This document shows, one piece after another, positions 41,447 through 53,925 of a stretch of 64,000 nt of DNA. The DNA lies in the NCBI RefSeq assembly GCF_000155675.2, contig NC_020911.1:2780501-2844500 (forward strand). The letters are read 5' to 3'. Below the pieces are notes generated by a model, which was not told where the DNA came from, made no database searches, and worked only from the letters and a program-made list of their open reading frames with translations. How positions within the stretch are numbered: position 1 is the first letter of the stretch; each line of letters starts with the position of its first letter. A program made the translations under genes and the position numbers. This stretch comes from Octadecabacter antarcticus 307 (GTDB taxonomy: Bacteria; Pseudomonadota; Alphaproteobacteria; Rhodobacterales; Rhodobacteraceae).

Positions 41447-41837
41447 TGGGCAAGTCAGACTTGAACGCCCGTCTAAAGATGGTCAGTCTAGGTTTTTGAT
41501 CCCATGGTTTGATGGTGCGATCTATTCTTTGGAATGGAAGGAAGCATTATGGGACAAATACGTCATGGCTGCGCCACGACTACGCACGCCATCAGAGCAA
41601 CAATACAGCGATCGCAAGCTACGACCGCAGCTTTGAGTCGAGAACTTGGTATAAATGTCAAAACGGTCTCCAAATGGCGCAAGCGCAAAACTGTAGAAGA
41701 CCGCAAGACTGGCCCCACGGACCCCAGTTCGACCGTTCTCAGCGCGGGTGAAGAGGCGATGATCGTCTCTTTTCGACGTCATACGCTCCTACCGCTGGAT
41801 GATTGTCTTTATGCCTTGCAGCCAACTATCCCACATC

Positions 41838-41877
41838 CATTGCCCGGCAGTTGCTTGCGGAGCAAGCAATGAGAGGG
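41838..41877 (-). repeat. Palindromic insertion element, copy 1 (in IS481 transposase)
   Basis: 40 bp with CATTGCCCGGCAG on the left, stem TTGCTTGC-gga-GCAAGCAA, and GAGAGGG on the right. It splits TIPH from TRSSLHR of the transposase and shifts the frame by one. The inferred target in element orientation is TCC/GAT. Confidence 0.9.
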
Positions 41878-42053
41878 GGACGCGATCTTCCCTGCATCGT
41901 TATTTGCAACGGCATGGGATATCCCGACTGCCAGATATGGAGGGCGACAAGCCGAAACGACAAAAGTTCAAACGCTATCCGATCGGATATTTTCATATCG
42001 ACATTGCAGAGTTGCGCACCAACGAAGGAAAACTTTATCTCTTTGTTGCCATT

Positions 42054-42093
42054 CATTGCCCGGCAGTGAATCGCAAAGCGATGTCACGAGAGG
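42054..42093 (-). repeat. Palindromic insertion element, copy 2 (in IS481 transposase)
   Basis: 40 bp with CATTGCCCGGCAG, stem GTGAATCGC-aaa-GCGATGTCAC with one mismatched pair, and GAGAGG. It lies between GCCATT and GACCGAACC, which encode the conserved VAI-DRTSKF, so the junction is exact. The target in element orientation is GTC/AAT. Confidence 0.93.
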
Positions 42094-42792
42094 GACCGAA
42101 CCAGCAAGTTTGCCGTGGCACGGCTTGTAGAAAAAGCAAATCGCAAGACGGCCTGGGAGTTCCTGGAGGCTGTGCTGGAAGCGGTGCCATACAAGATCCA
42201 CACAATTCTGACGGACAATGGCATTCAATTTTGTGAGCAACCACGTAACCGGAACACACCATATTCACGGCCTATGCGGTTCGACATGATCTGCGATGCC
42301 AACAGGATTGAGCACCGGCTGACCAAGCCCAACCATCCATGGACCAATGGCCAGGTTGAGCGGATGAACCGCACGATCAAGGACGCAACGGTCAGGCGGC
42401 ATCACTACGACAAGAATGATCAGCTGCACACCCATCTCGCAGACTTCATAGCGGCCTACAATTTCGCTCGAAGGCTGAAGACGCTCAACGGCCTGACGCC
42501 GTACGAATACATCTGCAAGATAGGGACTTCAGAACCAGAAAGATTCATCGTTAATCCGATCCAACAGATGCCGGGACCGAACACTTAGGCTCACGACCCA
42601 TTAAACTACTTGATGCTACTATTACTGCGTGATTCAAAGTCCCAAATCGTGGGGGTTAGAATGAGCAACCTTTATTGGCTGAGTGAAGCGCAGATGGATC
42701 GGCTTCGGCCTTACTTTCCAAAGAGCCGAGGCCGTGCACGCGTAGACGATCGCCGCGTTCTGAGCGGGATTATTTTCATTAACCGCAACGGG

Positions 42793-42868
42793 GCGAATGA
42801 CGGTTCGGGCCGCGGACCCGATGAAACGTCCAGTGGACGTTTCAAGGCATGAGCGGGCGGAGCCCCGT
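42793..42868 (+). repeat. Second-type palindromic insertion, 76 bp (in IS5 transposase)
   Basis: The conserved IS5 sequence NRNG-LRWxDAP is interrupted by 76 bp. Its centre is a perfect 23-bp palindrome TGAAACGTCCA-g-TGGACGTTTCA (42822-42844 area), flanked on the left by GGGCCGCGGACCCGA and on the right by GAGCGGGCGGAGCCCCGT. Arms differ from those of the 37-41 bp family, though the plan (fixed arms, central hairpin, GAG on the right) is alike. I see only one copy. Confidence 0.75.
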
Positions 42869-43087
42869 CTACGGTGGTGTGATGCACCATCAGAGTATGG
42901 TCCAACGAAGACCTTATATAACCGCTGGAAGCGCTGGAGTGACATGGGTGTGTTCGCACGGATTATGATGGGGCTGGCAGAACAGGCCTCAGATAGTAAA
43001 ACAATCTCAATTGATGCAACCTACCACAAAGCGCATCGCACTGCCTCAAGCCTGGGGTTGAAAAAAAGGGGGCGTGGGCGCCTGATT

Positions 43088-43127
43088 CACTGCCCGGCAG
43101 GGTATTGCGCCGCAATGTCCCGAGAGA
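43088..43127 (-). repeat. Palindromic insertion element, copy 3 (in IS5 transposase)
   Basis: 40 bp with CACTGCCCGGCAG, stem GGGTATTGC-gcc-GCAATGTCCC (one mismatch) and GAGAGA. It separates GRGRLI from GLTKGG of the transposase and shifts the frame. Target in element orientation: CCC/AAT. Confidence 0.9.
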
Positions 43128-43210
43128 GGGCTAACCAAGGGCGGCATGAACACCAAACTGCACGCGGTCACAGATAGCAGCGGACGCCCTGTCCGCTTGT
43201 CTTATGACTT

Positions 43211-43434
43211 TGGGAGCTTTTGTGCGAAACAAACGCCACAGACCAGCATTTTAGAATGCTGGTCTGTGGTGGTGGTTGGATCGTCTGCCGCTTGGTCTTT
43301 GAGGACCGTAAAGGAGTAAGATCAACCGCCACCTTCGCCAAAGGCTTGAACCACTGACCAACAGACAATTGCGCAGCAATCTGCCGAGAGGTGGATACAG
43401 AGCGGCACGAAGCCCTCAAGGACAAGCATAGGAT
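43211..43434 (+). ncRNA. Candidate IS110 bridge RNA region
   Basis: IS110-group elements encode a structured bridge RNA in the non-coding left end that pairs with donor and target DNA. This 224-bp left end contains a perfect 15-bp stem CCACAGACCAGCATT-ttag-AATGCTGGTCTGTGG (43236-43269). The two loops that would pair with target and donor were not assigned. A decayed palindromic insert seems to lie at 43352-43391, which might inactivate the RNA. Confidence 0.5.
43352..43391 (-). repeat. Palindromic insertion element, copy 4 (decayed or ambiguous)
   Basis: CACTGACCAACAG, stem AGACAATTGC-gca-GCAATCT and CGAGAGG resemble the family, with three changes in the left arm. It lies in the non-coding left end of IS110, so there is no reading frame to prove insertion. 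It could instead be part of the bridge RNA structure. Confidence 0.5.
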
Positions 43435-43731
43435 ATGACGAAGATGACGGATGATACCATTGGCATAGACATTTCCAAAGCCACTTTGGATATTCACCGG
43501 CTGAGCGACGGGAAGATGATGTCGTTTAGCAATTGCCCTGCAGGATTTAAGGCGCTTTCCAAGTTCTGCGCAAAGACGCCAGTGACACGCGTTATTTATG
43601 AAGCAACAGGCGCCTACCACAGTGGTCTAGAACGGGCCCTAGGCGGGTATTTGCCATTGGTAAAAGTGAACCCCTTGCAGGCGCGCCGGTTTGCTCAGGC
43701 ACAAGGCGTACGCGCAAAAACCGACGCCGTC

Positions 43732-43768
43732 CCTTCTCAGCGATGTAAACATCGCCTGCCAGGCAATG
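43732..43768 (+). repeat. Palindromic insertion element, copy 5 (in IS110 transposase)
   Basis: 37 bp: CCTTCTC, stem GCGATGT-a-ACATCGC, CTGCCAGGCAATG. It sits exactly between GCCGTC and GATGCC of the conserved KTDAV-DAKML. Target: GTC/GAT. Confidence 0.93.
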
Positions 43769-44065
43769 GATGCCAAAATGCTGGCCGTTATGGGGATTGC
43801 TTTTGTGTTAGAACCAGATGAGCCAGCCACAAAAATACAGCACGATCTGAAGGAGTTACGCGCATTTCGTTCAGGATTAATCAAAGATCGCACCAGCATC
43901 ATGAGCCGTCTGAAAACCCAAACCCTGTCCATCACTTGCCGTCAAAGCAAAGCCCGCTTGGCTCAAGTTGAAAGACAAATCGCTGAAATCAATGCTGAGG
44001 TTGATCGTCTGATACACTCCAACGACACGCTGGCGCATTCGATGAAAATTCTTCGCTCAATTCCC

Positions 44066-44103
44066 CCCTCTCATGCATGCGAGCATGCACTGCCGGGCAA
44101 CGG
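44066..44103 (+). repeat. Palindromic insertion element, copy 6 (in IS110 transposase)
   Basis: About 38 bp: CCCTCTC, stem TGCATGC-ga-GCATGCA, CTGCCGGGCAACG. It separates LRSIP from IGAVCAATIL. Target: CCC/GAC. The left end is uncertain by one or two C. Confidence 0.9.
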
Positions 44104-44142
44104 GACATCGGCGCGGTCTGTGCTGCCACCATTTTGATAGAC

Positions 44143-44180
44143 CCTCTCATGATTTGCATGCAAATCACTGCCGGGCAGTG
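44143..44180 (+). repeat. Palindromic insertion element, copy 7 (in IS110 transposase)
   Basis: 38 bp: CCTCTC, perfect stem TGATTTGCATGCAAATCA, CTGCCGGGCAGTG. It lies between ATILID and the MPEI motif. Target: GAC/GAT. Confidence 0.9.
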
Positions 44181-44239
44181 GATGCCTGAGATCGAGTGGA
44201 CAGAATGCAGGTGGCCAGTTTGACTGGAACATCTAGCCC

Positions 44240-44276
44240 CCCTCTCACACATGCAAGCATGTGTGAGAGGGCAGTG
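44240..44276 (+). repeat. Palindromic insertion element, copy 8, extended-palindrome variant
   Basis: 37 bp in which the right arm is replaced: CCCTCTCACACATGC-aa-GCATGTGTGAGAGGG is one perfect palindrome, followed by CAGTG. The CTGCCGG part of the usual right arm is missing. It lies between SP and MTRQSGQW of the IS110 transposase. Target: CCC/GAT. Confidence 0.9.
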
Positions 44277-44553
44277 GATGACGCGTCAATCGGGCCAATG
44301 GCGAGGAAAATCATTCATTCAGGGCGGCCGGAAAGTAGTGCGGGACGCACTCTATATGCCTGCCCTTGTGGCGATGCGGCACAACCCCGATCTCAAGACC
44401 AAATACCAAGCCATGATTAAAGCTGGAAAGCCACCAAAAGTCGCCCTTACGACGCTCATGCGAAAGCTCATTGAACTCGCCAACGCCCTCATCAAAGCAA
44501 ATCGAAATTGGGTGGAAAAGGGGGCTTGATCAAGACGGATACTTCTTATTCAT

Positions 44554-44836
44554 GGCGGGTCAAGTCAGCGATTATACTGGCCTTATAGACAGGGAACTCG
44601 TCCCTGTATCCCTAGGCGCAAATCACGCAAGACAACCATCAAATACCCCTTTCGTGACATTGCTTTGCAATGCACTGCCGGGCAATGGATAAGAGACGCG
44701 ACAAACGACGCAACCACATCGAGCGCATGTTGGCAGGATCAAAGCGTCGCTACACGCTATGACAGAAGCCCAACGGTCTTCCTCTCCGCCATCATGCTCG
44801 CCGCCACCGTTAATATTTTGGTTATGAGTCCTGAGC
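44554..44836 (+). pseudogene. IS5-family transposase, right half with internal deletion
   Basis: The right half resumes AGQVSDYTG, then jumps (internal deletion of the middle catalytic part) to GTRPCIPRRKSRKTTIKYP, is cut by the insert at 44649-44687, and continues DKRRDKRRNHIERM and RYDRSPTVFLSAIMLAATV, the normal IS5 C-terminus. A short deletion also removes the FGRLKDWRR part. The gene cannot be functional. Confidence 0.85.
44649..44687 (+). repeat. Palindromic insertion element, copy 9 (in IS5 transposase, right half)
   Basis: 39 bp: CTTTC (altered arm), stem GTGACATTGC-ttt-GCAATGCAC with one mismatch, CTGCCGGGCAATG. It lies between IKYP and DKRRDKRR. Orientation is opposite to the copy in the left half of the same transposase. 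Target: CCC/GAT. Confidence 0.88.
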
Positions 44837-44900
44837 CTAAGCTAAATAGGCCACATAGGTTTCCCCACACGACCTACATTAACCCAATCAAAGACTGAAT

Positions 44901-45356
44901 TTAAAACGTCTCAAGCGTCAAAGTGGCATCGCAATAGGCACCGTTATAGGTTCCAACCCAGACATCAAGAACACCACTGCCAAGGTTTATCAGATCAAGC
45001 CGCGGGTCAGATTGACCATTGCTGTCGTCATCGTAAAACCACTGGGTGTCTGCCGAATTTACCAACAGTGCAGCGTCACAATTGCTCACAACTGAAATGA
45101 CCAGTTGATAGCCGTTCATATTGCCGAGGTCGAAAGAGAAGTCGGGCGTTGTTGTGAAATAACCAGTCTCATTGCTGCTGAAACCACAGTTTGGAAGGTA
45201 ATTTTCACCGCCTGCCGTGATGTTGAAACTGCGCGGTGAGTACAGTTGATCGCCGGATGAGTTATATGAGTTAGTGCCCCAGATAGTGTAGTCTGGGCAA
45301 GCTTGTGCAGCACCCGCAAAACTAAAAGTTACTGCAATCGCGATAAATAAATGTCT
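44901..45356 (-). CDS. Secreted PPC-like protein, paralogue A
   Basis: The 151-residue product starts at ATG 45356 with a signal peptide (MRHLFIAIAVTFSFAGAAQA) and four cysteines (ACPDYTIWG, NCGFSS, NCDAALL, YCDATLTL) that could form two disulfides. The second half resembles the pre-peptidase C-terminal (PPC) fold: LVNSADTQWFYDDDSNGQSDP and LDVWVGTYNGAYCDATLTLETF. A close paralogue lies at 46692-47168 with an IS630 between them, so the two arose by tandem duplication. The insertion lies directly upstream of this copy and may have removed its promoter. Confidence 0.75.
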   Translation of the reverse strand, partial: RHLFIAIAVTFSFAGAAQACPDYTIWGTNSYNSSGDQLYSPRSFNITAGGENYLPNCGFSSNETGYFTTTPDFSFDLGNMNGYQLVISVVSNCDAALLVNSADTQWFYDDDSNGQSDPRLDLINLGSGVLDVWVGTYNGAYCDATLTLETF

Positions 45357-45390
45357 CATGATATTCTCCAGAATTTTAGATATACTCACT

Positions 45391-46452
45391 TCACTCTAAA
45401 ACCCGAAGTTTTTGGAGTGATATGATGCGGAAATTATCAGTGACCTGATTTCGGAAGTCGCGCCATTGTTCTGGGATGGTTTCTCGGAAGAACTTCAATA
45501 TGGCTCCGGTAAATTGCTTCTGTGTGGGATATGCGCGGTTGTGGGTGACGTGCTGGTGCATCACGGCCCAAAGCCTTTCAATCGGATTTAGGTGCGGGCA
45601 ATAGGGCGGCAGCTGGATCAAGTGGATGCGGCAGTTTTTGCGCGCCAGGAAGCCCCTCACATCAGGCCCTTTGTGGTAGGCGGCGTTGTCCCAGATCACG
45701 TGGATGATGCGTTTATCTTGGTTGCGTGCCTCGATTTTGGCCAGCAATTGCACGGCACTCACGCCGTCCACTGTGATCGGCGCTACGAAAGGGGTATCGA
45801 AGGTTTAAAGGTTCAACGCGCCGTGAATGTTGACGCGCGCCCGGCCTGAAGTCGTTTTGAGCGTGGGGTTTGTGCCCTTCTTCACCCAACCAAAGGCAGG
45901 CTTGCTTTGATATTCTGGGTGCACGGCATCTGCAAAGTAAACCGCCTCATCATCGGCCAGAGAATTCAGCATGTTTTCATACATTGCGATGAATTCGGCC
46001 TGTTTGGCTACATCGGCCACGCGCGGCAGCGCCTTGGGCTTGCGATATTCAAAGCCTAGTCGCGCTAAAAGCTTAACATAGCCTGAATGAGAATATTCCA
46101 GATCGAACTGCGCCGCGACATAGGTGCGGATTTCCACTGTAGATCGGCAGAAATGTTCCTCAAGCCAAACGCAAAGAGCGGCTTCCTGCGCGACAGACAG
46201 CCGCGATTGCCCGCCTTTCCAACCGTCATATGCTACCGCATCCCAGCCCTCGGACAGATATTGTTTGTGCCAGCCACGCACCGTGTCGTCATCAAGGTAA
46301 AGCACCTGCGCAATCTCGACACAGGACTTCCCGTCATCCAGTAGCAAAAGCGCATTCGCGCGGCGCGCAACGCCATGATCCTCGCGTTGGCGTTTTACAC
46401 AGCTCAAAAGCTCGCGGCGGTCTTCGCAGGAAAGAAAGTTGGGACGGATCAT
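45391..46452 (-). pseudogene. IS630-family transposase with one nonsense codon
   Basis: Two frames in the same register are separated by a single TAA at 45805-45807, in the segment GALNL-stop-TFDTPFVAPI where relatives have a Glu codon, so a single G to T change explains it. The protein of about 353 residues has an N-terminal helix-turn-helix (SCVEIAQVLYLDDDTVRGWHK), the first catalytic Asp in VYFADAVHP, the second in HVIWDNAAYHKG and the Glu in PPYCPHLNPIERLW. The gene end runs through the terminal repeat (ACCCGAAG). No palindromic insert is present in this one. The inverted repeat near 46485-46500 (CTTCGGGT) marks the other end. Confidence 0.88.
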
Positions 46453-46691
46453 AGGCGAAGAAGAATCTATTCCCGTGCAAACATCAACAAGTTCTTCGGG
46501 TCCTCAATGACGCGCAGTATATGTAAAATCTTAAGGAAAAAATAACCTCATACCCTAGCGTTAACTAGTGGATTTTGGATAAGGTCTTCCTAACCTTAGT
46601 GCCTGCAATAACTACCAAACACTATATTTCTCGAAAAAGGCCGCGCAAGTCCCACTAGGCTGCCAATAACGGCTGCCTCTACAAAAGAAGT

Positions 46692-47168
46692 TTAGAACGT
46701 CTCGAGCGTTAGGACAGCATCACAATAGCCCGGTTCATAAGTTCCGGCCCAGATATCAATGCGCCCATTGGACGGGTTGTTCAGCGTGATTTGGGCACCA
46801 CCGCTGCCATCATTATAGTCATCATCATCGTAATACCAATTCGCAGCACCAGTGTTGATCAACACCGCACTGTCACACAGGCCAGTCACAGTAATATGCA
46901 GGCTATAGGGCCCCATGCCGGACAGAAAGAACGAAAAGTCTGGCTGGCTAGCAAAATAGCCCGGCCCAGTGTCGGTCAGCGGCCTGACTTGCGAGCAATT
47001 AAAAATATAGTTGTCCCCGCCTGCGACGACGGAATACCGCTGTGGCGAATACAGTTGTTGCCCTGTCGCGTTGTACTGCTCAACGCCAGTCATCGAAAAC
47101 GTTGGACAGGCCTGCACGGCGGCAGTCGTCCCAAAGAATGCAAACATAGTGGTCACTAAAAATTTCAT
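46692..47168 (-). CDS. Secreted PPC-like protein, paralogue B
   Basis: The 158-residue product starts at ATG 47168 with a signal peptide (MKFLVTTMFAFFGTTAAVQA). It shares the cysteine pattern and ending of paralogue A: ACPTFSMTG, NCSQV, LCDSAVLIN and YCDAVLTLETF, with WYYDDDDYNDGSG, an acidic stretch that could bind calcium. The fold resembles a PPC domain standing alone. Function is unknown. It may be a small surface or periplasmic binding protein. Confidence 0.75.
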   Translation of the reverse strand: MKFLVTTMFAFFGTTAAVQACPTFSMTGVEQYNATGQQLYSPQRYSVVAGGDNYIFNCSQVRPLTDTGPGYFASQPDFSFFLSGMGPYSLHITVTGLCDSAVLINTGAANWYYDDDDYNDGSGGAQITLNNPSNGRIDIWAGTYEPGYCDAVLTLETF

Positions 47169-47291
47169 GTCATTTCCCCATTTCAGAATATTCCAAATGG
47201 TAGACTGACAATCCAACCTTTTACTAGGGATTATTTTGATCTCTTGGTCAGGTTATCCATGGGGTCGCGTCATATTGTGCGCTTCAGACAC

Positions 47292-47330
47292 GAAAAAGGC
47301 CGCCCCCTGAACGGGAAGCGGCCTAAATTT
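47292..47330 (-). terminator. Rho-independent terminator of tig
   Basis: On the minus strand AGGCCGCTTCCCG-ttcag-GGGGCGGCCTTTTTC forms a GC-rich hairpin with T-run about 17 bp after the tig stop. Confidence 0.85.
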
Positions 47331-47346
47331 CGCAATACTATAAGGC

Positions 47347-48678
47347 TTACTCTTCTTCGAGCGCTTCAACAGCCTTTTGCAGCTCATCCTTGTTCACTTC
47401 TTTTTCTTTCATCGAAGCGGCTTCAACGATGTGATCGACAACCTTGTCTTCAAACAAGGGTGCGCGAATCTGTTGCTGCATCTGTGGGTTCTTCTGAACA
47501 AACTCAAAAAACTGGCGCGCTTGGTCGCCGTACTGACGCGCTTGGTTCATCACCGCTTGGGTGAACTCCGCGTCAGACACCTGAATTTCAGCCTTTTGAC
47601 CGATTTCAGCCAAAAGCAAGCCCAGCTTTACGCGTCGGTCTGCCAGTTTGGTGTGCTCATCGGTGGTCTCGACCTCGGGGTGGTCATGGCCTTCAACCTC
47701 GGGGTTGTCTTCGTGCCACAACTGGTGCGCGATCTGGCCAGCTTCGGCTTCAACCAAGGACGGTGGCAACTCGAACGACACCATCTTGTCCAATTCATCA
47801 AGAAGCGCGCGCTTGGTAACTGCACGTGCAGCGCCAGAATACTCTTCTTCCAGCTTCGATGTGATCTGACCCTTCAGACCTGCAAGGTCTTCGGCGCCAA
47901 ACTGCTTGGCCATCTCATCGTCAATCTCGGACGTCTTGGGTTCTTTAACATTCAAGATTTTGCACTCGAACACGGCGACTTTGCCTGCAAGGTGCTCAGC
48001 ATTGTAATCCGCAGGGAACGTGACTTCGACATTCTTTTCTTCGCCAGCTTTGACGCCGATCAAACCTTCTTCAAAACCCGGGATGAACTGACCGGACCCA
48101 AGTTCAAGCGCATGACCCTCAGCCGCACCGCCTTCAAACGGTTCGCCGTCAACCTTACCAAGGAAGTCGAAAATCACTTGGTCGCCATCTTTGGCTTTTG
48201 CGCCCTTCTTGCGATCATCAAAATTCTTTGCAGTCTCCGCCAGGGACGTCAGCGCCTCTTGCACTGATGCGTCGTCCGCCTTCACAACCAGTTTTTCCAG
48301 CTTGATATTAGTGAAATCAACCTCGGGAACGACGGGCAGCGCTTCGTAAGAAACGTTAACTACAACATCGTCGCCTTCTTTCCATTCGTCATTGGCCATC
48401 TTCATCTCAGGCTGCATCGCCGGGCGATCGCCAGACGTTTCCAGATGCGTGTTCATTGCACCGTCAACGGATTCTTGCATGGCTTCGCCCAAAACCTTGG
48501 GGCCAAACTGCTTTTTCATCATCGCCATAGGGACTTTACCCTTACGGAAGCCCTTCATCTCGACCTCGGGTTGCGCCTCTTTGAGCTTCTCAAGGACTTT
48601 TGCGTCCAGCTCGGCGGCCGTGATTTTGATCTCGTAGCCGCGCTTGAGGCCGTCGTTCAGGGTCTCTTTGACCGTCAT
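47347..48678 (-). CDS. tig: Trigger factor
   Basis: The 443-residue ribosome-associated chaperone starts at ATG 48678 with [17 protein letters not shown] and the ribosome-binding domain, including the signature [17 protein letters not shown] (residues about 45-61). The FKBP-type isomerase domain follows ([39 protein letters not shown]), then the long helical C-terminal chaperone arms. The upstream open frame to 48768 is not conserved. This housekeeping gene sits inside an IS-rich stretch, so the ISs here are not one horizontally acquired island. Confidence 0.97.
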
Positions 48679-49106
48679 GGTATCGTCCTTTTCTTTTCTC
48701 ACAGGCCGAAGGGCCATAAATATCGAGGTGCGGGTGAAGGGACTCTTGAAAACGTTTAAATTCAACAAGCTAAGACTAGCCGCGCGTAATTTCTGCGTAT
48801 TTCAGAAGTTTTTACTCCCGCATATATCTTTAGAGGGACGGCGATGCCCTCCCCCTAAGTCGCGCGTTTCCTAGCAAAGTGTAGACAGGGATGCGAGAGG
48901 AAAAAGCGAGAAAACAGAACGAAAGAGAAAACACCATGCCAGACATCTCGGGGTTATCTCTCCATTAGGAGGATGATGGCTTCTGGCGTTCATTGAATTC
49001 ACTTACCAGCTCGATGAACGCATTGTGGATGCAGGCCTTTCGCTGATCGATCTAGCATCCTTGATCTGGCCAAGGCCGTTGCGTGTGAACGCTTTGGGCG
49101 GTGGGC
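48679..49106. other. Region upstream of tig with unidentified remnants
   Basis: The right side of the tig promoter lies here. From about 48990 the minus strand reads IHNAFIELVSEFNERQKPSSS, which looks like the fragment of a protein, but I cannot name it. No complete gene is visible in this 430-bp stretch. Confidence 0.3.
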
Positions 49107-49193
49107 TCAACTGATCGACGCAACACATTCGGCAAATCTCTCAGCTGGTGTTTGATATTGCAAGGTCTTGCGCGACCGTTCGTTCAGCTGCAT
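49107..49193 (-). pseudogene. IS30-family transposase, C-terminal remnant
   Basis: The minus strand reads LNERSRKTLQYQTPAERFAE followed by CVASIS and a stop. This matches the usual end of IS30 transposases (NxRPRKxLxxxTPAExF). Nothing else of the element is visible; the IS1182 element directly right of it may have replaced the rest. Confidence 0.6.
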
Positions 49194-49304
49194 TACGGGT
49201 CGGGATCGTCTTTTCAGCTCCCATGTTGGATTATGGAGGCGGGTCAGGGCCATTCTAGGCACATCCCGACGTTTCCGGGCTAAATTGAAGCCGACTGCGG
49301 CCTT

Positions 49305-50792
49305 TTACGCCTTCATGGCCGCAATCATCGCTGGAATGCCCATTATGTTCATGATGCGGGTCATATTGTGGGCCAGCACATGCATCGCCATCTCCGCCGC
49401 CACCTTTTTGAGGGTCCGCATCTTGAAGTGCGTCGCTCCAATCCAAGATTTGATCGTGCCGTAGGGATGCTCGACGGTCATGCTACGGACAGCCAGTTGC
49501 GCTGGATCTGCGTCTGACCGGTCTTGGACCCTCGCCAGTACATCTTCGAGCTCCCAACGGCGGACACGCCGCTCTTTGCCTGTTGTGCATTTGGCTTTGA
49601 GGACGCAATCAGCGCATGCTCCTGACCAGGATGATTTGATCGCTTTGCCGTCTTGCTGACCGGTAAATCTGTATGTCAGATGTTCCCCTGCAGGACACAC
49701 ATACACGTCCAGATCGCGGTCATATGCAAAGTCAGCTTTATCAAATTGACCGCGCGCTGCAGCATTTGGGGTCATCGGCTTCGGGACAACGACCGAGATG
49801 CCGGCCGCTTCACTGGCAACAATTTCCTCGCCCTTGTAATAACCCTTATCCACTGCCCGGCAGTGCATGTTTACATGCATGAGAGGGGGCGATTGCTATG
49901 AGCGTCCGTCGTCATGGCATCGCGCGCTGCAACAGCCATCATCGACAAAGCGTCGCGATCAAAGCCAAGCATGGTGACGTCGTGCGCAACGATCAGGTGG
50001 TTATCAGCCTCGACAGCCGTTTGAACATTGTAGCCTACAATACGTGGCATGCGCGCCGTTGTTGTCATTGATCTGGCATCTGGGTCGCTGAATGAGACCT
50101 GTGTTTCGCCCGTCTTGTCCATCTGCTGTTCAATTGATCTGTAGCGCACGGCTTCCTTTTGCTGGTGTTCCTGCTTCCTCAGGGTGCGTTCCATGCGGGC
50201 TTCCGGCAGCCATTGTGCCAGTTTGCTCGAACACCTCATCGGCGCGATCCAATTCACCCAAGTATCGCTCAATGGTTTTGTCGATCTCACCCAACTTCTG
50301 GCGCAGCTTGCCGCGCGTATAATTCTTGGCCTTGGAATTTACCGCCTTGAACCGACTGCCATCGATGGCGACCACGCCCCCATCAAGCAGATCCATATTG
50401 CGGCACAAAGCCACGAACTGCTGACACACCTTGCGGATCACAGGACCGTTATCTTTGCGGAAGTCGGCAATCGTCTTGAAGTCCGGCTTCAGCCGGCCCG
50501 TCAGCCAAATGAGCTCTAGATTGCGACCGCACTCTCGTTCCAAACGACGCGATGACTGCACTTGATTGAGATATCCGGAGAGATAAATTCGCAGCATCAG
50601 CCCCGGATGGTAGCCGGGCCAACCAGTGGCGGCAGGCTGTGCGTTGAAGCCAAGCACCGCTAAATCCAGCATGTCGGCAAAAGCATCAATGGCACGGACG
50701 GGACTGTTCTCATCAACATAATCGTCGAGATGTTCGGGCAGCAAGATCGTCTGCTGACGGTCTAAACCTTCGATGAACTGCGTCATGAGCAA
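49305..50792 (-). pseudogene. IS1182-family transposase, broken by frameshifts and one palindromic insertion
   Basis: The N-terminal part reads MTQFIEGLDRQQTILLPEHL, then SPVRAIDAFADMLDL and DFKTIADFRKDNG, typical of IS1182. The frame shifts near 50190, continues RMERTLRKQEHQQKEAVRYR and YNVQTAVEADNHLIVAHDVT, shifts again near 49905, and is cut by the insert at 49851-49887 between LIAIA and DKGYYKGEE. The C-terminal part shows CPAGEHLTYRF, CTTGKERRVRRWE, VEHPYGTIKSWIGATHF and ends normally. The right IS end probably includes GGAGGCTGTGTGAAAACTC (50843-50861, minus strand). Confidence 0.88.
49851..49887 (-). repeat. Palindromic insertion element, copy 10 (in IS1182 transposase)
   Basis: 37 bp: CACTGCCCGGCAG, stem TGCATGT-tt-ACATGCA, TGAGAGGG. 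In gene direction it lies between ATCGCC and GATAAG (IA-DKGYYKG). Target in element orientation: GCC/GAT. Confidence 0.92.
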
Positions 50793-50924
50793 CCTCCGTA
50801 TCGAGTACAGAAACTATACCATAATTGGGGAAAAGCAGGGGAGTTTTCACACAGCCTCCGGACTTTGCTGTTTTTCACCCCGCTGCGGAAGCAAATACGA
50901 TGGTGACTTGATCAAGCCGACCTA

Positions 50925-51206
50925 CTACTCATATTTTGCGACCTCACCAAGAAATAGATAAACGTTAAGGAAGAATGAATATGCCTCTTCAGCGGTAACA
51001 TTACTATGAACACCCGCCGATACCCAATCATACAAATTGGTTAGGTTTTGGCGCAGTTTGGCTCTTCTGTTTTCACTGATCGTGTCGACTGAAATATTCG
51101 CGTTCAGTCGGTTTTTGTGCCGCGACGCATCCAGCGACAGTTCATTTCCGCCAATACCAATAGTTTTGTCCGAAGGTGGGTAGGCCGCGTCTGCAAAAGC
51201 TTCAAT
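50925..51206 (-). pseudogene. 3' fragment of an unidentified gene cut off by IS1595
   Basis: About 93 codons remain, from the IS1595 target duplication (IEAFADAAYPP) to a stop at 50925. The sequence contains DASRHKNRLNANISVDTISE, then NLYDWVSAGVHSNVTAEEA and ends FFLNVYLFLGEVAKYE. The pattern GVH-x-xVTxxEA with a helical end resembles the C-termini of some AbiJ/AbiT-like defence or nucleotide-handling proteins, but I am not sure. The 5' part is not found right of the IS, where an IS3 begins at once, so the gene start has been lost. Confidence 0.5.
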
Positions 51207-52374
51207 AAGGCTTATCCCTTTTAGTCCGGTTGCCCCACATGTTGACGCGGCGCAGAACCTCGCCCTTGTGGCTTGAGAGGCGGATCGGATCAGTTTGTAA
51301 CATCTGGTGGGTTTATGGGGCGTGGCTTTTGCCGTGAACAAGGGCCTTCAGGCGCGCTGTTCAACAAAATCACGATATGTCGCTGGGCCAATACCAACAC
51401 CGATCCCCAGCAGCGTGTCGAAGGCGCTTCGCATGTGTCGCCGTCGGTTCCAGCGGAACACAAATTCGTCGAGATAGCGTTGCAGATGGCATTTTCTGAG
51501 GCCGTGGAAGACGCCTTTTGCCCACGTTTTTAGGTTGGAGAACACGCGGTGGACCCAGTGGAGTATGTCATGTGCCTTCTTGCCGCTGACGACCTTCGCC
51601 TCATGCGTGTTTGCAGGGGGATTTTCGTAACCTAGCCAGCCATCCGTGATGACGTGAGCGCCAGGCTCTACAGCCTGACCAATGAACCCGTGTAGCGTCT
51701 TTGATGCGCCGTCGGGAATGTGTTTCATCCTGATACGGCGCGGATGTCCGTCTCTTGATAACTCGACGGCGCAGACGACAAACATCTTTCCGACCGGGCT
51801 CCGCCCACCCTTTGGCCGGTCCTCGGGATCATGCCGGGACCGGAACGGAATCTCTGTTTCATCGATCTCGACAAGGTCTTTCAGGGGGTTGCGGTCAGGG
51901 TTGACCATCGACCGCCGCAGCTTTTGCAAGAGGAGCCACGCCGTCTTGTAGCTGCCAAGGCCAAGTTGCGCCTGAAGTTGCAGCGCTGACATGCCGTTGG
52001 AATGGCTGGTGATGATGTGCGCGGCAAGAAACCAAATTCGCAACGGCAAATGGCTGCTGTGCATCACCGTGCCAGCCGTCACGGATGTCTGCCGTGCGCA
52101 ACCGGCACATTCCCAAGTCGCGCGATTTCGCTTTAACGGCCAGCCCTTGCAGGTGCCACAGGAAGGACACACAAAGCCCTCAGGCCAACGATGTTCCGCC
52201 AGATAATGCGAACACGCTTCCTCATCAGAAAACCTGGCGTCGAACGCCGGGCGGGACATGGGTTTGTCGTTTTTCCATCTGGCTGGCATGGGTAGAACAA
52301 TACAAGAACATTGTAGATTGGCAAGCCGCTTCACACTACATCAGGTGCCGCCGGAGCAAAGGGGATAAGCCTTA
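51207..52374 (-). mobile_element. IS1595-family element, intact, with 8-bp target duplication
   Basis: The ends AAGGCTTATCCC (51207-51218) and its inverse GGGATAAGCCTT (52362-52373) continue as imperfect inverted repeats (TCCGGTTGC and TCCGGCGGC). The direct repeat GCTTCAAT flanks the element at 51199-51206 and 52375-52382. An 8-bp duplication is typical of IS1595. Intact ends, duplication and transposase show this is a recent insertion. Confidence 0.9.
51348..52289 (-). CDS. IS1595-family transposase
   Basis: The 313-residue protein has an N-terminal zinc ribbon (FVCPSCGTCKGWPL and WECAGCARQTSVTAGT, four cysteines, residues about 34-65) and a DDE-type catalytic domain (DDE_Tnp_IS1595) with LVEIDETEIPFR, HVITDGWLGYEN and the C-terminal HWVHRVFSNLKTWAKG, where IS1595 proteins carry Asn/His in place of the usual Glu. 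The frame is unbroken and no palindromic insert is present. I chose the start MPARWKND at 52289; other in-frame ATGs at 52334 and 52259 are possible. Confidence 0.9.
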   Translation of the reverse strand: MPARWKNDKPMSRPAFDARFSDEEACSHYLAEHRWPEGFVCPSCGTCKGWPLKRNRATWECAGCARQTSVTAGTVMHSSHLPLRIWFLAAHIITSHSNGMSALQLQAQLGLGSYKTAWLLLQKLRRSMVNPDRNPLKDLVEIDETEIPFRSRHDPEDRPKGGRSPVGKMFVVCAVELSRDGHPRRIRMKHIPDGASKTLHGFIGQAVEPGAHVITDGWLGYENPPANTHEAKVVSGKKAHDILHWVHRVFSNLKTWAKGVFHGLRKCHLQRYLDEFVFRWNRRRHMRSAFDTLLGIGVGIGPATYRDFVEQRA

Positions 52375-52481
52375 GCTTCAATTATGGACCTGTCGCGCTT
52401 TCGTGCCACCCCAAGTGCTCGTTTAAGCCACCTTGCGTTCGAAAGCGATGGGGCTTTTCCAACCCAATGTTGAGTGACGTC

Positions 52482-52519
52482 CACTGCCAGGCAGGTGATT
52501 GCATGCAATCACTGAGAGG
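52482..52519 (-). repeat. Palindromic insertion element, copy 11 (in IS3 orfB)
   Basis: 38 bp: CACTGCCAGGCAG, perfect stem GTGATTGC-at-GCAATCAC, TGAGAGG. Removing it restores YNPRRRHSTLGW exactly. Target in element orientation: GCC/GAC. Confidence 0.93.
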
Positions 52520-52896
52520 GGCGTGGATTATAGAAGCCATTAATGTATCCAAAGATTGCCATCTCGGCACGCCTGCGGGTTTCCCATGTGTCGCGCCAGA
52601 TCAGTTCGGCCTTGCCTTGCCCCGGCGGTGAATATTTATCGCCACATCACGTTTCATCCGATTGCTTACTGCCCAACCTATGATACGGCGCGACTGCAGA
52701 TCCAAGATCACGGCCAAATACAACCAGCCTTCACGCGTCCAGCTATAGGTAATGTCACCAGCCCACTTCTGGTTAGGGGCATCTGCTGCAAAATCACGGT
52801 CCAGCAAGTTCGGCGCGATATTGAACTTATGATTACTGCCTGTTGTCGCCTTATGTTTGCGTGTTCTAACCACAGATATGCCATTCTGGCGCATCC

Positions 52897-52933
52897 GTTG
52901 CCCGGCAGTCGATACGCAGTATCGATGAGAGGG
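52897..52933 (-). repeat. Palindromic insertion element, copy 12 (in IS3 orfB)
   Basis: 37 bp: CGTTGCCCGGCAG, stem TCGATAC-gca-GTATCGA, TGAGAGG. It separates HRRVGR from MRQNGISVV. Target in element orientation: CCC/GAT. Confidence 0.92.
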
Positions 52934-53170
52934 GGCGGCCCACCCGACGATGACCGAAATCTAGGCCAGTCTCTTTCAGTCCCTCAGTCATGCGCGGCCT
53001 GCCATAGCTGCCAAAGCTGAGACGAGATTGTTCTTTGATGTGCGCCAGTGTGACCAGATCAGAACGCTGTCTGCGACTGGCAGGACGGCTGCGGAATGCC
53101 CACAAACCACGAGGGCTGACGTCTAAAACGTCACATAGCCGATTGGTGGAGAAGCTTGCGCCGTGTTCTT

Positions 53171-53207
53171 CCCTCTCAGCGAATTTTCAATTCGCCTGCC
53201 GGGCAAG
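53171..53207 (+). repeat. Palindromic insertion element, copy 13 (in IS3 orfB start)
   Basis: 37 bp: CCCTCTC, stem GCGAATT-ttc-AATTCGC, CTGCCGGGCAAG. It lies just before EEHGASFSTNRLC near the orfB start. Target about CTT/GAA, the least typical of the set. Confidence 0.88.
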
Positions 53208-53291
53208 GAACGAACCTAAACCTCACGGCTTTTGGCTCGCGAAGAACTGCGTTGCTTTTTTTAGGATTTCTCTCTCCTCCTTGAGAATGCC

Positions 53292-53329
53292 CACTCTCAT
53301 CGAAACTGCGTTTCGATTGCCGGGCGGTG
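53292..53329 (+). repeat. Palindromic insertion element, copy 14 (in IS3 orfA, in frame)
   Basis: About 38-39 bp: CACTCTC, stem TCGAAAC-tgc-GTTTCGA, TTGCCGGGCGGTG. Here the orfA frame stays open across the insert, adding about 13 residues (PPPGNRNAVSMRV) between DRLRRE and ILKEERE. It is the only clear copy shown not to shift the frame. Confidence 0.88.
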
Positions 53330-53438
53330 GTGTCTCGCGCCGAAGCCGGTCGTTCTCTTGGGCGAGACCTAAATCCTCTTGCGACACCACGTCAGTGTCT
53401 CGGTACGCCGTGATCCATTTGTTCAGCGTCGACATGCC

Positions 53439-53479
53439 CCCTCTCGGCTGATTGCTTTGCAATCGCCTGCCGGGCAATG
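53439..53479 (+). repeat. Palindromic insertion element, copy 15 (in IS3 orfA)
   Basis: 41 bp, the longest copy: CCCTCTC, stem GGCTGATTGC-ttt-GCAATCGCC with one mismatch, CTGCCGGGCAATG. It splits VADDLGV from GMSTLNKW. Target: GCC/GAC. Confidence 0.92.
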
Positions 53480-53640
53480 GACGCCAAGATCATCCGCAAC
53501 TTGCTTGCGTGTAAGTCCACAGGTCAGCGCGATCCGCACCGCATCCTTGCGAAACTCGTCCGTCCGTTTCAGTCCCATAGTTCAGCTCCTTTGTTGCAAT
53601 AAATGCTATCAAAGGAACGGCATCAAACCGCGACAGGGCC

Positions 53641-53925
53641 AAGTCGAGCAAAATGCACCTTCGCGTCTGCATATGGCGGGCGTAACATAGGTCATTATGG
53701 ACTCGAACTAGACCTCTGCTGCATCCGTCCAACCCTCCCAAAAACTACCCGTTTTGAACGCTCTCGAATACACGCTTCCCGACTGACAGATCGTTTGGGT
53801 AGATGCTCTGACGGTAACTAACGTCCCAACGTGATATCCGCGCCCCTTATCATCAGTCACCCTTCCCCGTTGAACCCTGCCCCGCCTTGGCATAAACGAG
53901 CGGCACGCATCGTAAGGGGACGCAC
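53641..53925. other. Intergenic region upstream of purL
   Basis: About 285 bp between the IS3 end and purL with no recognisable gene. It should carry the purL promoter. It may also hold remains of the gene cut by the IS elements, which I could not identify. Confidence 0.4.

Follow-up and report, generated by a model that had tools for sequence, protein, structure and literature searches.

Are the short palindromes that recur in the transposase genes of Octadecabacter antarcticus 307 native parts of the insertion sequences (ISs) that carry them, or are they mobile elements of their own, and what would bring them there? The question arises from a 64,000-nt stretch of contig NC_020911.1 (positions 2,780,501–2,844,500, referred to as the window), in which numerous copies of such a hairpin are crowded into 11.6 kb. 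Comparison with insert-free relatives reveals that the hairpins have been inserted precisely, without duplication or loss of target bases. We consider, at about even chances, that the element is a non-autonomous mobile hairpin resembling the repetitive extragenic palindromes (REPs), which an HUH-type enzyme probably mobilises in single-stranded form and which lives nested in other mobile elements.

Anatomy of the hairpin element

A covariance model trained on 12 copies of the window, combined with folding, yielded 14 clear palindromic insertions and one decayed copy, all within 41838–53479. The count is the same as in a preliminary description of this DNA and, as also stated there, no copy was found by the model in the remaining ~52 kb of the window at E ≤ 1. 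At this threshold the model marked 14 places; the 12 with E < 1e-6 are the training copies, while the match at 43088–43128 and the decayed copy 43352–43392 scored E = 4e-4 and E = 0.23, respectively. The copy 44240–44276, missed by the model and revealed by folding, is a perfect 32-nt palindrome followed by CAGTG and looks like the outcome of copying one arm over the second. A perfect palindrome of this kind is the product expected from templated correction of a quasi-palindrome. The copies are as follows.

41838–41877, minus strand: hairpin element, 40 nt (model and folding; natural empty site on contig C1)
42054–42094, minus strand: hairpin element, 41 nt (model and folding)
43088–43130, minus strand: hairpin element, 43 nt (model and folding)
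43352–43392, minus strand: decayed hairpin element (model and folding)
43732–43768, plus strand: hairpin element, 37 nt, target GTC^GATGCC (model and folding)
44066–44102, plus strand: hairpin element, 37 nt (model and folding)
44142–44180, plus strand: hairpin element, 39 nt, target ATAGA^GATGCC (model and folding)
44240–44276, plus strand: variant hairpin, the perfect palindrome (folding only)
44647–44687, plus strand: hairpin element, 41 nt, in the distal IS5 part (model and folding; natural empty site)
49851–49887, minus strand: hairpin element, 37 nt, directly before an Asp codon (DKGYY) (model and folding; natural empty site, 83%)
52482–52520, minus strand: hairpin element, 39 nt (model and folding)
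52896–52933, minus strand: hairpin element, 38 nt (model and folding)
53171–53208, plus strand: hairpin element, 38 nt (model and folding)
53292–53329, plus strand: hairpin element, 38 nt (model and folding)
53439–53479, plus strand: hairpin element, 41 nt (model and folding; natural empty site, 89%)

Beyond the window, 350 elements from ~1.65 Mb of loci were pooled into 192 site clusters. Its parts are, in order, CCC, TCTC, a stem-loop that varies between copies, CTGCC, GGG and the tail CARTG, with TCTC and CTGCC unpaired. On the top strand the tail is CAATG or CAGTG at 151 of the 192 sites, corresponding to CAYTG at the foot of the complementary strand. The earlier picture of a short hairpin with fixed arms is thereby retained, whereas the length of 37–41 bp has to be extended to 37–43 nt in the window and to 33–44 nt across the site clusters. 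On 100 distinct elements the paired cells amount to 88.4%, and the CCC/GGG base around the unpaired TCTC and CTGCC is paired in 98.7%. The stem covariation score of these elements is 0.526 compared with 0.119 in shuffled (reached in none of 500 shuffles) and at most 0.116 in slid alignments, the alignment having been fitted to the model, which favours the score. Stems differ among copies yet covary.

Precise insertion into a preferred target

In 69 of the 192 site clusters another sequence aligns gap-free within ~15 nt of the insertion point (identity 67–100%), and no duplication or loss of the target was detected in these 69 comparisons. The best empty counterpart, an IS5 copy in the same genome, shows no difference in the 300 nt surrounding the junction; over 496 nt it has 6 mismatches and is free of gaps. 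For IS1182, the filled site GTGATTGTC[40 nt]GATGTTGAG is opposed to the empty site GTCATCGTT^GATGTTGAA, and one IS1182 copy in the source genome is devoid of just one of three inserts. Alignment to intact IS copies, proposed as a check in the preliminary description, provided ungapped natural empty counterparts for 4 of the 12 window sites compared (41838, 44647, 49851 and 53439), in accordance with its claim of true insertions. Rejoining of open reading frames (ORFs) over six frames is a blunt test, in which the precise join was not superior to joins displaced by three bases. Because insert-free intact relatives exist, the inserts are not native to the ISs, and an interpretation as native IS parts is ruled out.

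The target logo is C^GATG at the 52 sites of the own genome as well as at the 111 sites of other genomes, with shares of 79/80% for the left C and of 63/75% for G, 75/77% for A, 52/63% for T and 65/68% for G (own/other); it represents a preference and is not strictly fixed. Within transposases the insertion frequently occurred directly before an Asp codon, as in the motifs TDNGKEF, DSTGIK, DQGSQF and, in IstB, DELGY. At one and the same site, closely related ISs can differ in the stem of their insert (pairs of 94.9% and 89% identity), which suggests that the same target has been used repeatedly. An association between the tail and the target was also observed, as tail base 4 varies with target base 2 (p 0.0015) and target base 3 (p 0.0005; 18 tests in all), as would be the case for a guide.

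Spread and orientation of insert-bearing insertion sequences

The preliminary description would be refuted if the same sequences proved native to intact, active IS copies. The outcome is mixed, as the inserts are not native but ISs that carry them do multiply: one 1074-bp IS5 is present in the source genome in 22 copies with the inserted junction and in none with an empty junction within three mismatches. All 22 inserted copies encode the same 270-aa remainder. Four insert-free IS5 relatives, in contrast, possess open 313-aa frames (83% aa identity) and share with the inserted copies the 10-bp left terminus, the right terminus differing at one base, and the target flanks GGCTTTGTT / AACAAAGCC, with exactly the 39 nt absent at the site. 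The simplest reading of the spread of insert-bearing ISs is help in trans by intact relatives.

Both orientations occur, as previously claimed: among the 172 sites with an ORF match, from which the orientation was taken by the best-matching ORF, 103 are sense and 69 antisense, a mild sense excess (p 0.012). The insert length is a multiple of three in just 29 of the 192 site clusters. Codon positions were compared as a sign of continued selection on interrupted transposases: same-site pairs with the same stem and 91–96% identity include several without an excess of changes at one codon position, at small counts; diverged pairs show such an excess, with recombination mosaics as a confounding factor. 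IS1182 copies are themselves mosaics, composed of sharp blocks of ~70–85% and of 98–100% identity (C2 231–233 kb, 2.44, 2.59, 2.70, 3.16 and 3.45 Mb), a pattern that indicates recombination or gene conversion between these copies.

Abundance and taxonomic range

The genome of O. antarcticus 307 comprises 4.88 Mb in two contigs of 4,812,600 and 62,881 bases. It has been described as 4.8 Mb plus a 63-kb plasmid with a GC content of 55% and a density of mobile-element genes 4–8 times the usual roseobacter level; the text stem 'palindrom' does not occur in the accessible part of that paper (PMC3646047). The genome-wide pattern search suggested in the preliminary description returned 82 + 72 = 154 exact matches of CCCTCTCN{12,24}CTGCCGGGCARTG and none of the reversed pattern, so that the abundance of the element is far beyond chance. 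A slightly looser pattern has matches in 39 genomes out of the 149 that were sampled across the order, the source genome included, and its reversed control only once, in one genome; the two matches in G106 are without a clear hairpin, so that a few of the 39 positive genomes may be due to chance. The source genome contributes 157 of the looser matches and G075 83, whereas every other genome has at most 10.

In a class-wide sample of 190 genomes, two match, the source genome and one of its family, and none of the 187 sampled class genomes outside the source family does. A scan with one genome per species yielded at least 120 loci; the 80 with titles are nearly all from Rhodobacterales/Rhodobacteraceae (in part by our placement of the genera), the exceptions being two Vreelandella, one Labrenzia and one Planctomicrobium, the last of which looks like a false match. 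The element is therefore nearly confined to Rhodobacterales. Two element queries match 74 and 94 plasmid records. Pseudosulfitobacter, many of whose records are near-identical, heads the list together with Leisingera, Sulfitobacter and Phaeobacter, and Shinella accounts for two of the 74; annotation beneath the matches is almost always absent. Nine contigs of the IMG/VR collection match, six of them in transposase genes as judged by eye. The preliminary claim that no equivalent has been described agrees with our results: Rfam contains no family at the elements (the sole match in 41500–53800 is off-element and sub-threshold, with 24 bits versus 90), and no description of this element was found in the open-access literature among the matches listed.

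Genomic location of the copies

The host genes in the window contain transposase Pfam domains and belong to the five IS families originally proposed (IS481, IS5, IS110, IS1182 and IS3), the family names being assigned by eye and IS481 also being named on annotated plasmid relatives.

41488–42591, plus strand: IS481-family IS with two antisense hairpin inserts (Pfam HTH_23, rve_3)
42610–43420, plus strand: IS5-family IS, first part, limits approximate (Pfam DUF4096)
43435–44529, plus strand: IS110-family transposase gene, four hairpin inserts, all sense (Pfam DEDD_Tnp_IS110, Transposase_20)
49305–50792, minus strand: IS1182-family transposase with one sense hairpin insert (Pfam DDE_Tnp_1_6, DUF772)
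52400–53741, minus strand: IS3-family IS with five hairpin inserts, three antisense and two sense, limits approximate (Pfam rve)

The IS3 element carries the maximum of five inserts stated before. For IS110 the idea of several inserts per IS persists, while the number is corrected to four since 44647–44687 is read as part of an IS5 fragment. Two parts of IS5 flank the IS110 gene, which apparently sits inside the interrupted IS5. The IS481 of the window has 7 further full-length copies in the genome at 99–100% identity, plus partial copies, and a 77% relative on contig C1 that is ~80 nt shorter. Among the interrupted ISs lies an uninterrupted IS1595-family transposase ORF (51348–52334, 328 aa). 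The neighbourhood further includes two paralogous small secreted-type proteins (44901–45389 and 46692–47216), both ending in ...CDATLTLETF, with an IS630-like element split into two ORFs (45391–46452) between them.

Across the source genome, 67 of the 73 site clusters found only there are in IS genes on the basis of translations inspected by eye, which point to IS5, IS481, IS3, IS110, IS1182, IS21 (istA, istB), IS30 and IS256 as hosts. Pfam matches on 146 flanking frames of these 73 sites (two frames per site, many of them non-coding by design) comprise rve (15), HTH_21 (12), rve_3 (8), six members of DDE_Tnp_1 and other transposase families, and so point to the same kind of host; XdhC_C is a strong match in one neighbour, and some unrelated families are matched weakly, once each. 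Moreover, 140 of the 192 clusters, and 64 of the 80 with an own-genome representative, match ORFs recurring at three or more sites. An unbiased sample of 20 evenly spaced 20-kb stretches (400 kb), scanned with the covariance model, contains 28 elements, 21 of which lie in or at most 40 bp from recurrent IS sequence covering 5.8% of the sample; the corresponding p = 9e-21 is optimistic, as the ORF set was picked by element matches and 7 of the 28 elements represent one IS5. Five of the seven elements outside this set read as other IS parts, L232:5015 is located ~190 nt from one of these, and the seventh, L241:10190, has no clear assignment. The density of CGAYG targets is lower in the IS blocks of the window than elsewhere (6.4 versus 9.1 per kb), and target supply therefore does not explain the concentration in ISs.

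The preliminary description had restricted the element to transposase genes. Its emphasis on mobile DNA is borne out by the above sample, but the restriction has to be abandoned, as copies in relatives are found in a non-coding miniature inverted-repeat transposable element (MITE), in an intergenic repeat and at a few sites that appear to be unique. About 20 of the ~117 clusters at other-genome loci at first read as intergenic. A Sulfitobacter genome has one and the same element at several chromosomal sites; at 3 of the 5 loci viewed it lies within copies of a single MITE of 303–392 nt, as it does at one locus of another such genome. This MITE, common to two Sulfitobacter genomes, has ~22-nt inverted repeats GGGTCAGGACCCATTAATCCTG (L328, L336, L343, L349) and is bordered on both sides by TA in two of four copies, the remaining two having TA on a single side; the insert sets differ between copies. 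Plasmid sequences related to the Sulfitobacter MITE were also noticed. In a further genome, 4 of 12 loci viewed are inside a different intergenic repeat. Among the 33 sites without a clear host (6 own, 27 other), 28 have other flank matches in the data, two only within the same locus and two only short, such a match being no proof of mobility; the other five have none or, in one case, 24 nt only. The host range is thus mainly mobile or repeated DNA, with exceptions.

One element is common to a bacterial and a viral contig (L056 and L311, 83% identity of the flanks), where it adjoins a gene of RelE toxin–antitoxin type by eye and not an IS. Local hopping was discarded as an explanation of multiple inserts, as neighbouring inserts carry different stems and share their orientation in 30 of 49 pairs, which is not significant. 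A bias of replication strand was likewise considered; singletons are distributed 20 plus/6 minus on one replichore and 5/2 on the other, and this result was not used because several share one IS.

Proposed mechanism and alternatives

Read on the complementary strand, the inserted unit can be written as CATC^[CAYTG-(CCC GGCAG stem-loop GAGA GGG)]^G and consists of a short 5′ tail followed by an imperfect hairpin. Its insertion 3′ of a CATC-like target without duplication or loss corresponds to the logic of HUH/Y1 transposases, as represented by the TnpA of IS200/IS605 and TnpA-REP. As no mobilising enzyme was found among the IS200, REP-associated tyrosine transposase (RAYT) and Y1 loci examined, we infer the HUH step from this logic: an HUH-type enzyme supplied in trans would move the element as single-stranded DNA, with the CAYTG tail presumably acting as a guide. 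E. coli REPs require a 5′ tetranucleotide and a stem bulge (PMC8266576), and Y1 guides lie 5′ of the hairpin foot (PMC6006769). Copies might then build up in ISs and MITEs, which would tolerate, multiply and carry the inserts between genomes; by breaking the transposase gene the inserts would render the host IS non-autonomous, to be moved by intact relatives.

Several observations weigh against this scenario, the missing enzyme among them. RAYT (NF047646) scored above the cut-off in 63 of the 149 genomes; 18 of these are among the 39 with the element and 45 among the 110 without it, so that there is no correlation (Fisher p 0.58). Moreover, none of 28 scanned loci of RAYT or Y1 type, a subset of those present that includes 10 from element-bearing genomes, contains the element; RAYT was consequently rejected as partner. 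In the source genome a single match extends to the end of the RAYT profile; it shows no HUH motif by eye and lies beside fur- and fabA-like genes. IS200 TnpA is present in the source genome (24 Y1 matches), and an origin in IS200 was dismissed because the end hairpins differ in the 8 of 24 matches viewed. The association of tail and target may reflect element subfamilies, stem base 8 being also correlated with target bases. Two of five covariation measures were matched by shuffles (50 and 107 of 500), one outer stem pair is unpaired in 64 of 100 elements, and templated repair of a DNA quasi-palindrome, rather than selection, can produce covariation. Finally, tolerance and hitchhiking do not easily explain why so few copies are found in unique intergenic DNA.

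A divergent RAYT-like protein of 160 aa, with no HUH motif visible, is encoded beside fur- and fabA-like genes (L303 3370–3852), with relatives in G061, G095 and G083; it is possibly a domesticated TnpA-REP.

In an alternative, the insertion machinery itself recognises mobile or repeated DNA, not by sequence but by something that such DNA has in common, be it repetition or the intermediates of transposition, for example single-stranded DNA exposed in transposition or in recombination between repeat copies. The element would then be a true hyperparasite. We regard such targeting as a possibility of secondary rank, clearly less probable than the REP-like scenario. It would account for the 21 of 28 copies in 5.8% of the unbiased sample despite the lower CGAYG density in IS blocks, for hosts as dissimilar as coding ISs and non-coding MITEs, alike in being mobile and repeated but not in sequence, and for several different stems per IS, and the mosaic IS1182 copies attest to recombining repeats. 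However, no mechanism or protein has been identified for it, the IS-overlap test has the biases given above (the ORF set and the single IS5), and no repeat is seen at five of the 33 sites without a clear host. Insertion by a different chemistry, in which an integrase works on folded DNA or RNA serves as the intermediate in place of an HUH enzyme, appears unlikely; it would be in line with the lack of any Y1 partner that correlates with or neighbours the element in the genomes and loci examined, but the target located 5′ of the insert on the hairpin strand, the lack of target-site duplication (TSD) and the 5′ foot tail best fit HUH logic.

The remaining two alternatives assign a role to the inserts in the expression of the transposases. 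A cellular device silencing transposases by insertion could be deduced from the fact that inserts interrupt transposases from many families and often lie next to an Asp codon in a conserved motif. We consider it very improbable, given that inserted ISs still multiply, that inserts also occur in non-coding MITEs and repeatedly in already broken genes, and that no linked defence gene was noticed, though no search aimed at one was made. Conversely, the transposases might remain functional if the inserts were removed at the RNA level, by ribosome skipping (like byps or T4 gene 60) or by splicing. The 22 inserted and zero empty IS5 copies, the near-identical IS1182 copies with three inserts and the third-position bias of some diverged insert-bearing pairs could be read in this way. 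Nevertheless, we hardly give credence to this idea: the occurrence of both orientations (69 of 172 antisense) makes an RNA-level bypass unlikely, help in trans by intact relatives makes it unnecessary, only 29 of the 192 clusters have an insert length divisible by three, and several recently diverged pairs with the same insert lack codon periodicity (small counts), the diverged ones being confounded by recombination tracts. Active targeting versus tolerance as the cause of the mobile-DNA niche is in our opinion the most interesting question.

Comparison with known systems

REP-type hairpins are thought to be mobile but, to our knowledge, exact insertions with matching empty sites have rarely been shown. 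The present element offers dozens of precise insertions, a readable target and a near-identical pair of empty and filled alleles in one genome, which makes the mechanism testable. Its strong nesting in mobile DNA is a pattern not predicted by neutral insertion, and it accounts for a type of broken transposase in marine Rhodobacterales which might otherwise be mistaken for a random pseudogene.

The mobile bypassing elements (byps) of yeast mitochondria are likewise small hairpin insertions within coding sequence, but only in sense orientation and in expressed genes; the element is distinguished from them by its occurrence in both orientations (103 sense, 69 antisense) and by hosts that are mostly mobile elements. 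Rickettsia palindromic elements are palindromic insertions within genes as well; unlike these, the element is mostly not frame-preserving and resides in transposase instead of housekeeping genes. The Rickettsia elements are mentioned in PMC3733652. With MITEs it shares the small size and the non-autonomous mobility, but it has no long terminal inverted repeats with TSD, and MITEs here serve as hosts. Like IS200/IS605, it inserts precisely and leaves no TSD, the short target lying 5′ of it when the hairpin strand is read; in contrast, the element has one hairpin instead of two ends and no tnpA, and the IS200 hairpins of the source genome differ.

The closest relationship is to the REP/TnpA-REP/RAYT system (GTAG and CGTC superfamilies). 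Like REPs, the element is an imperfect palindromic hairpin of 20–50 nt with a conserved bulge and a short conserved foot tail on one strand, is non-autonomous and reaches high copy numbers in some genomes. It differs in its foot, which is CAYTG and not GTAG or CGTC, and in its precise single insertions with visible empty sites. It is mostly found inside ISs and MITEs (67 of 73 own-only clusters in IS genes), whereas REPs are mostly intergenic, and no RAYT adjoins it in the loci scanned, whereas REPs flank their cognate tnpA-REP gene. It constitutes a real family, apparently one not yet described, that works in a REP-like manner but departs from REPs in foot sequence, location and RAYT linkage, and that looks like a parasite of parasites.

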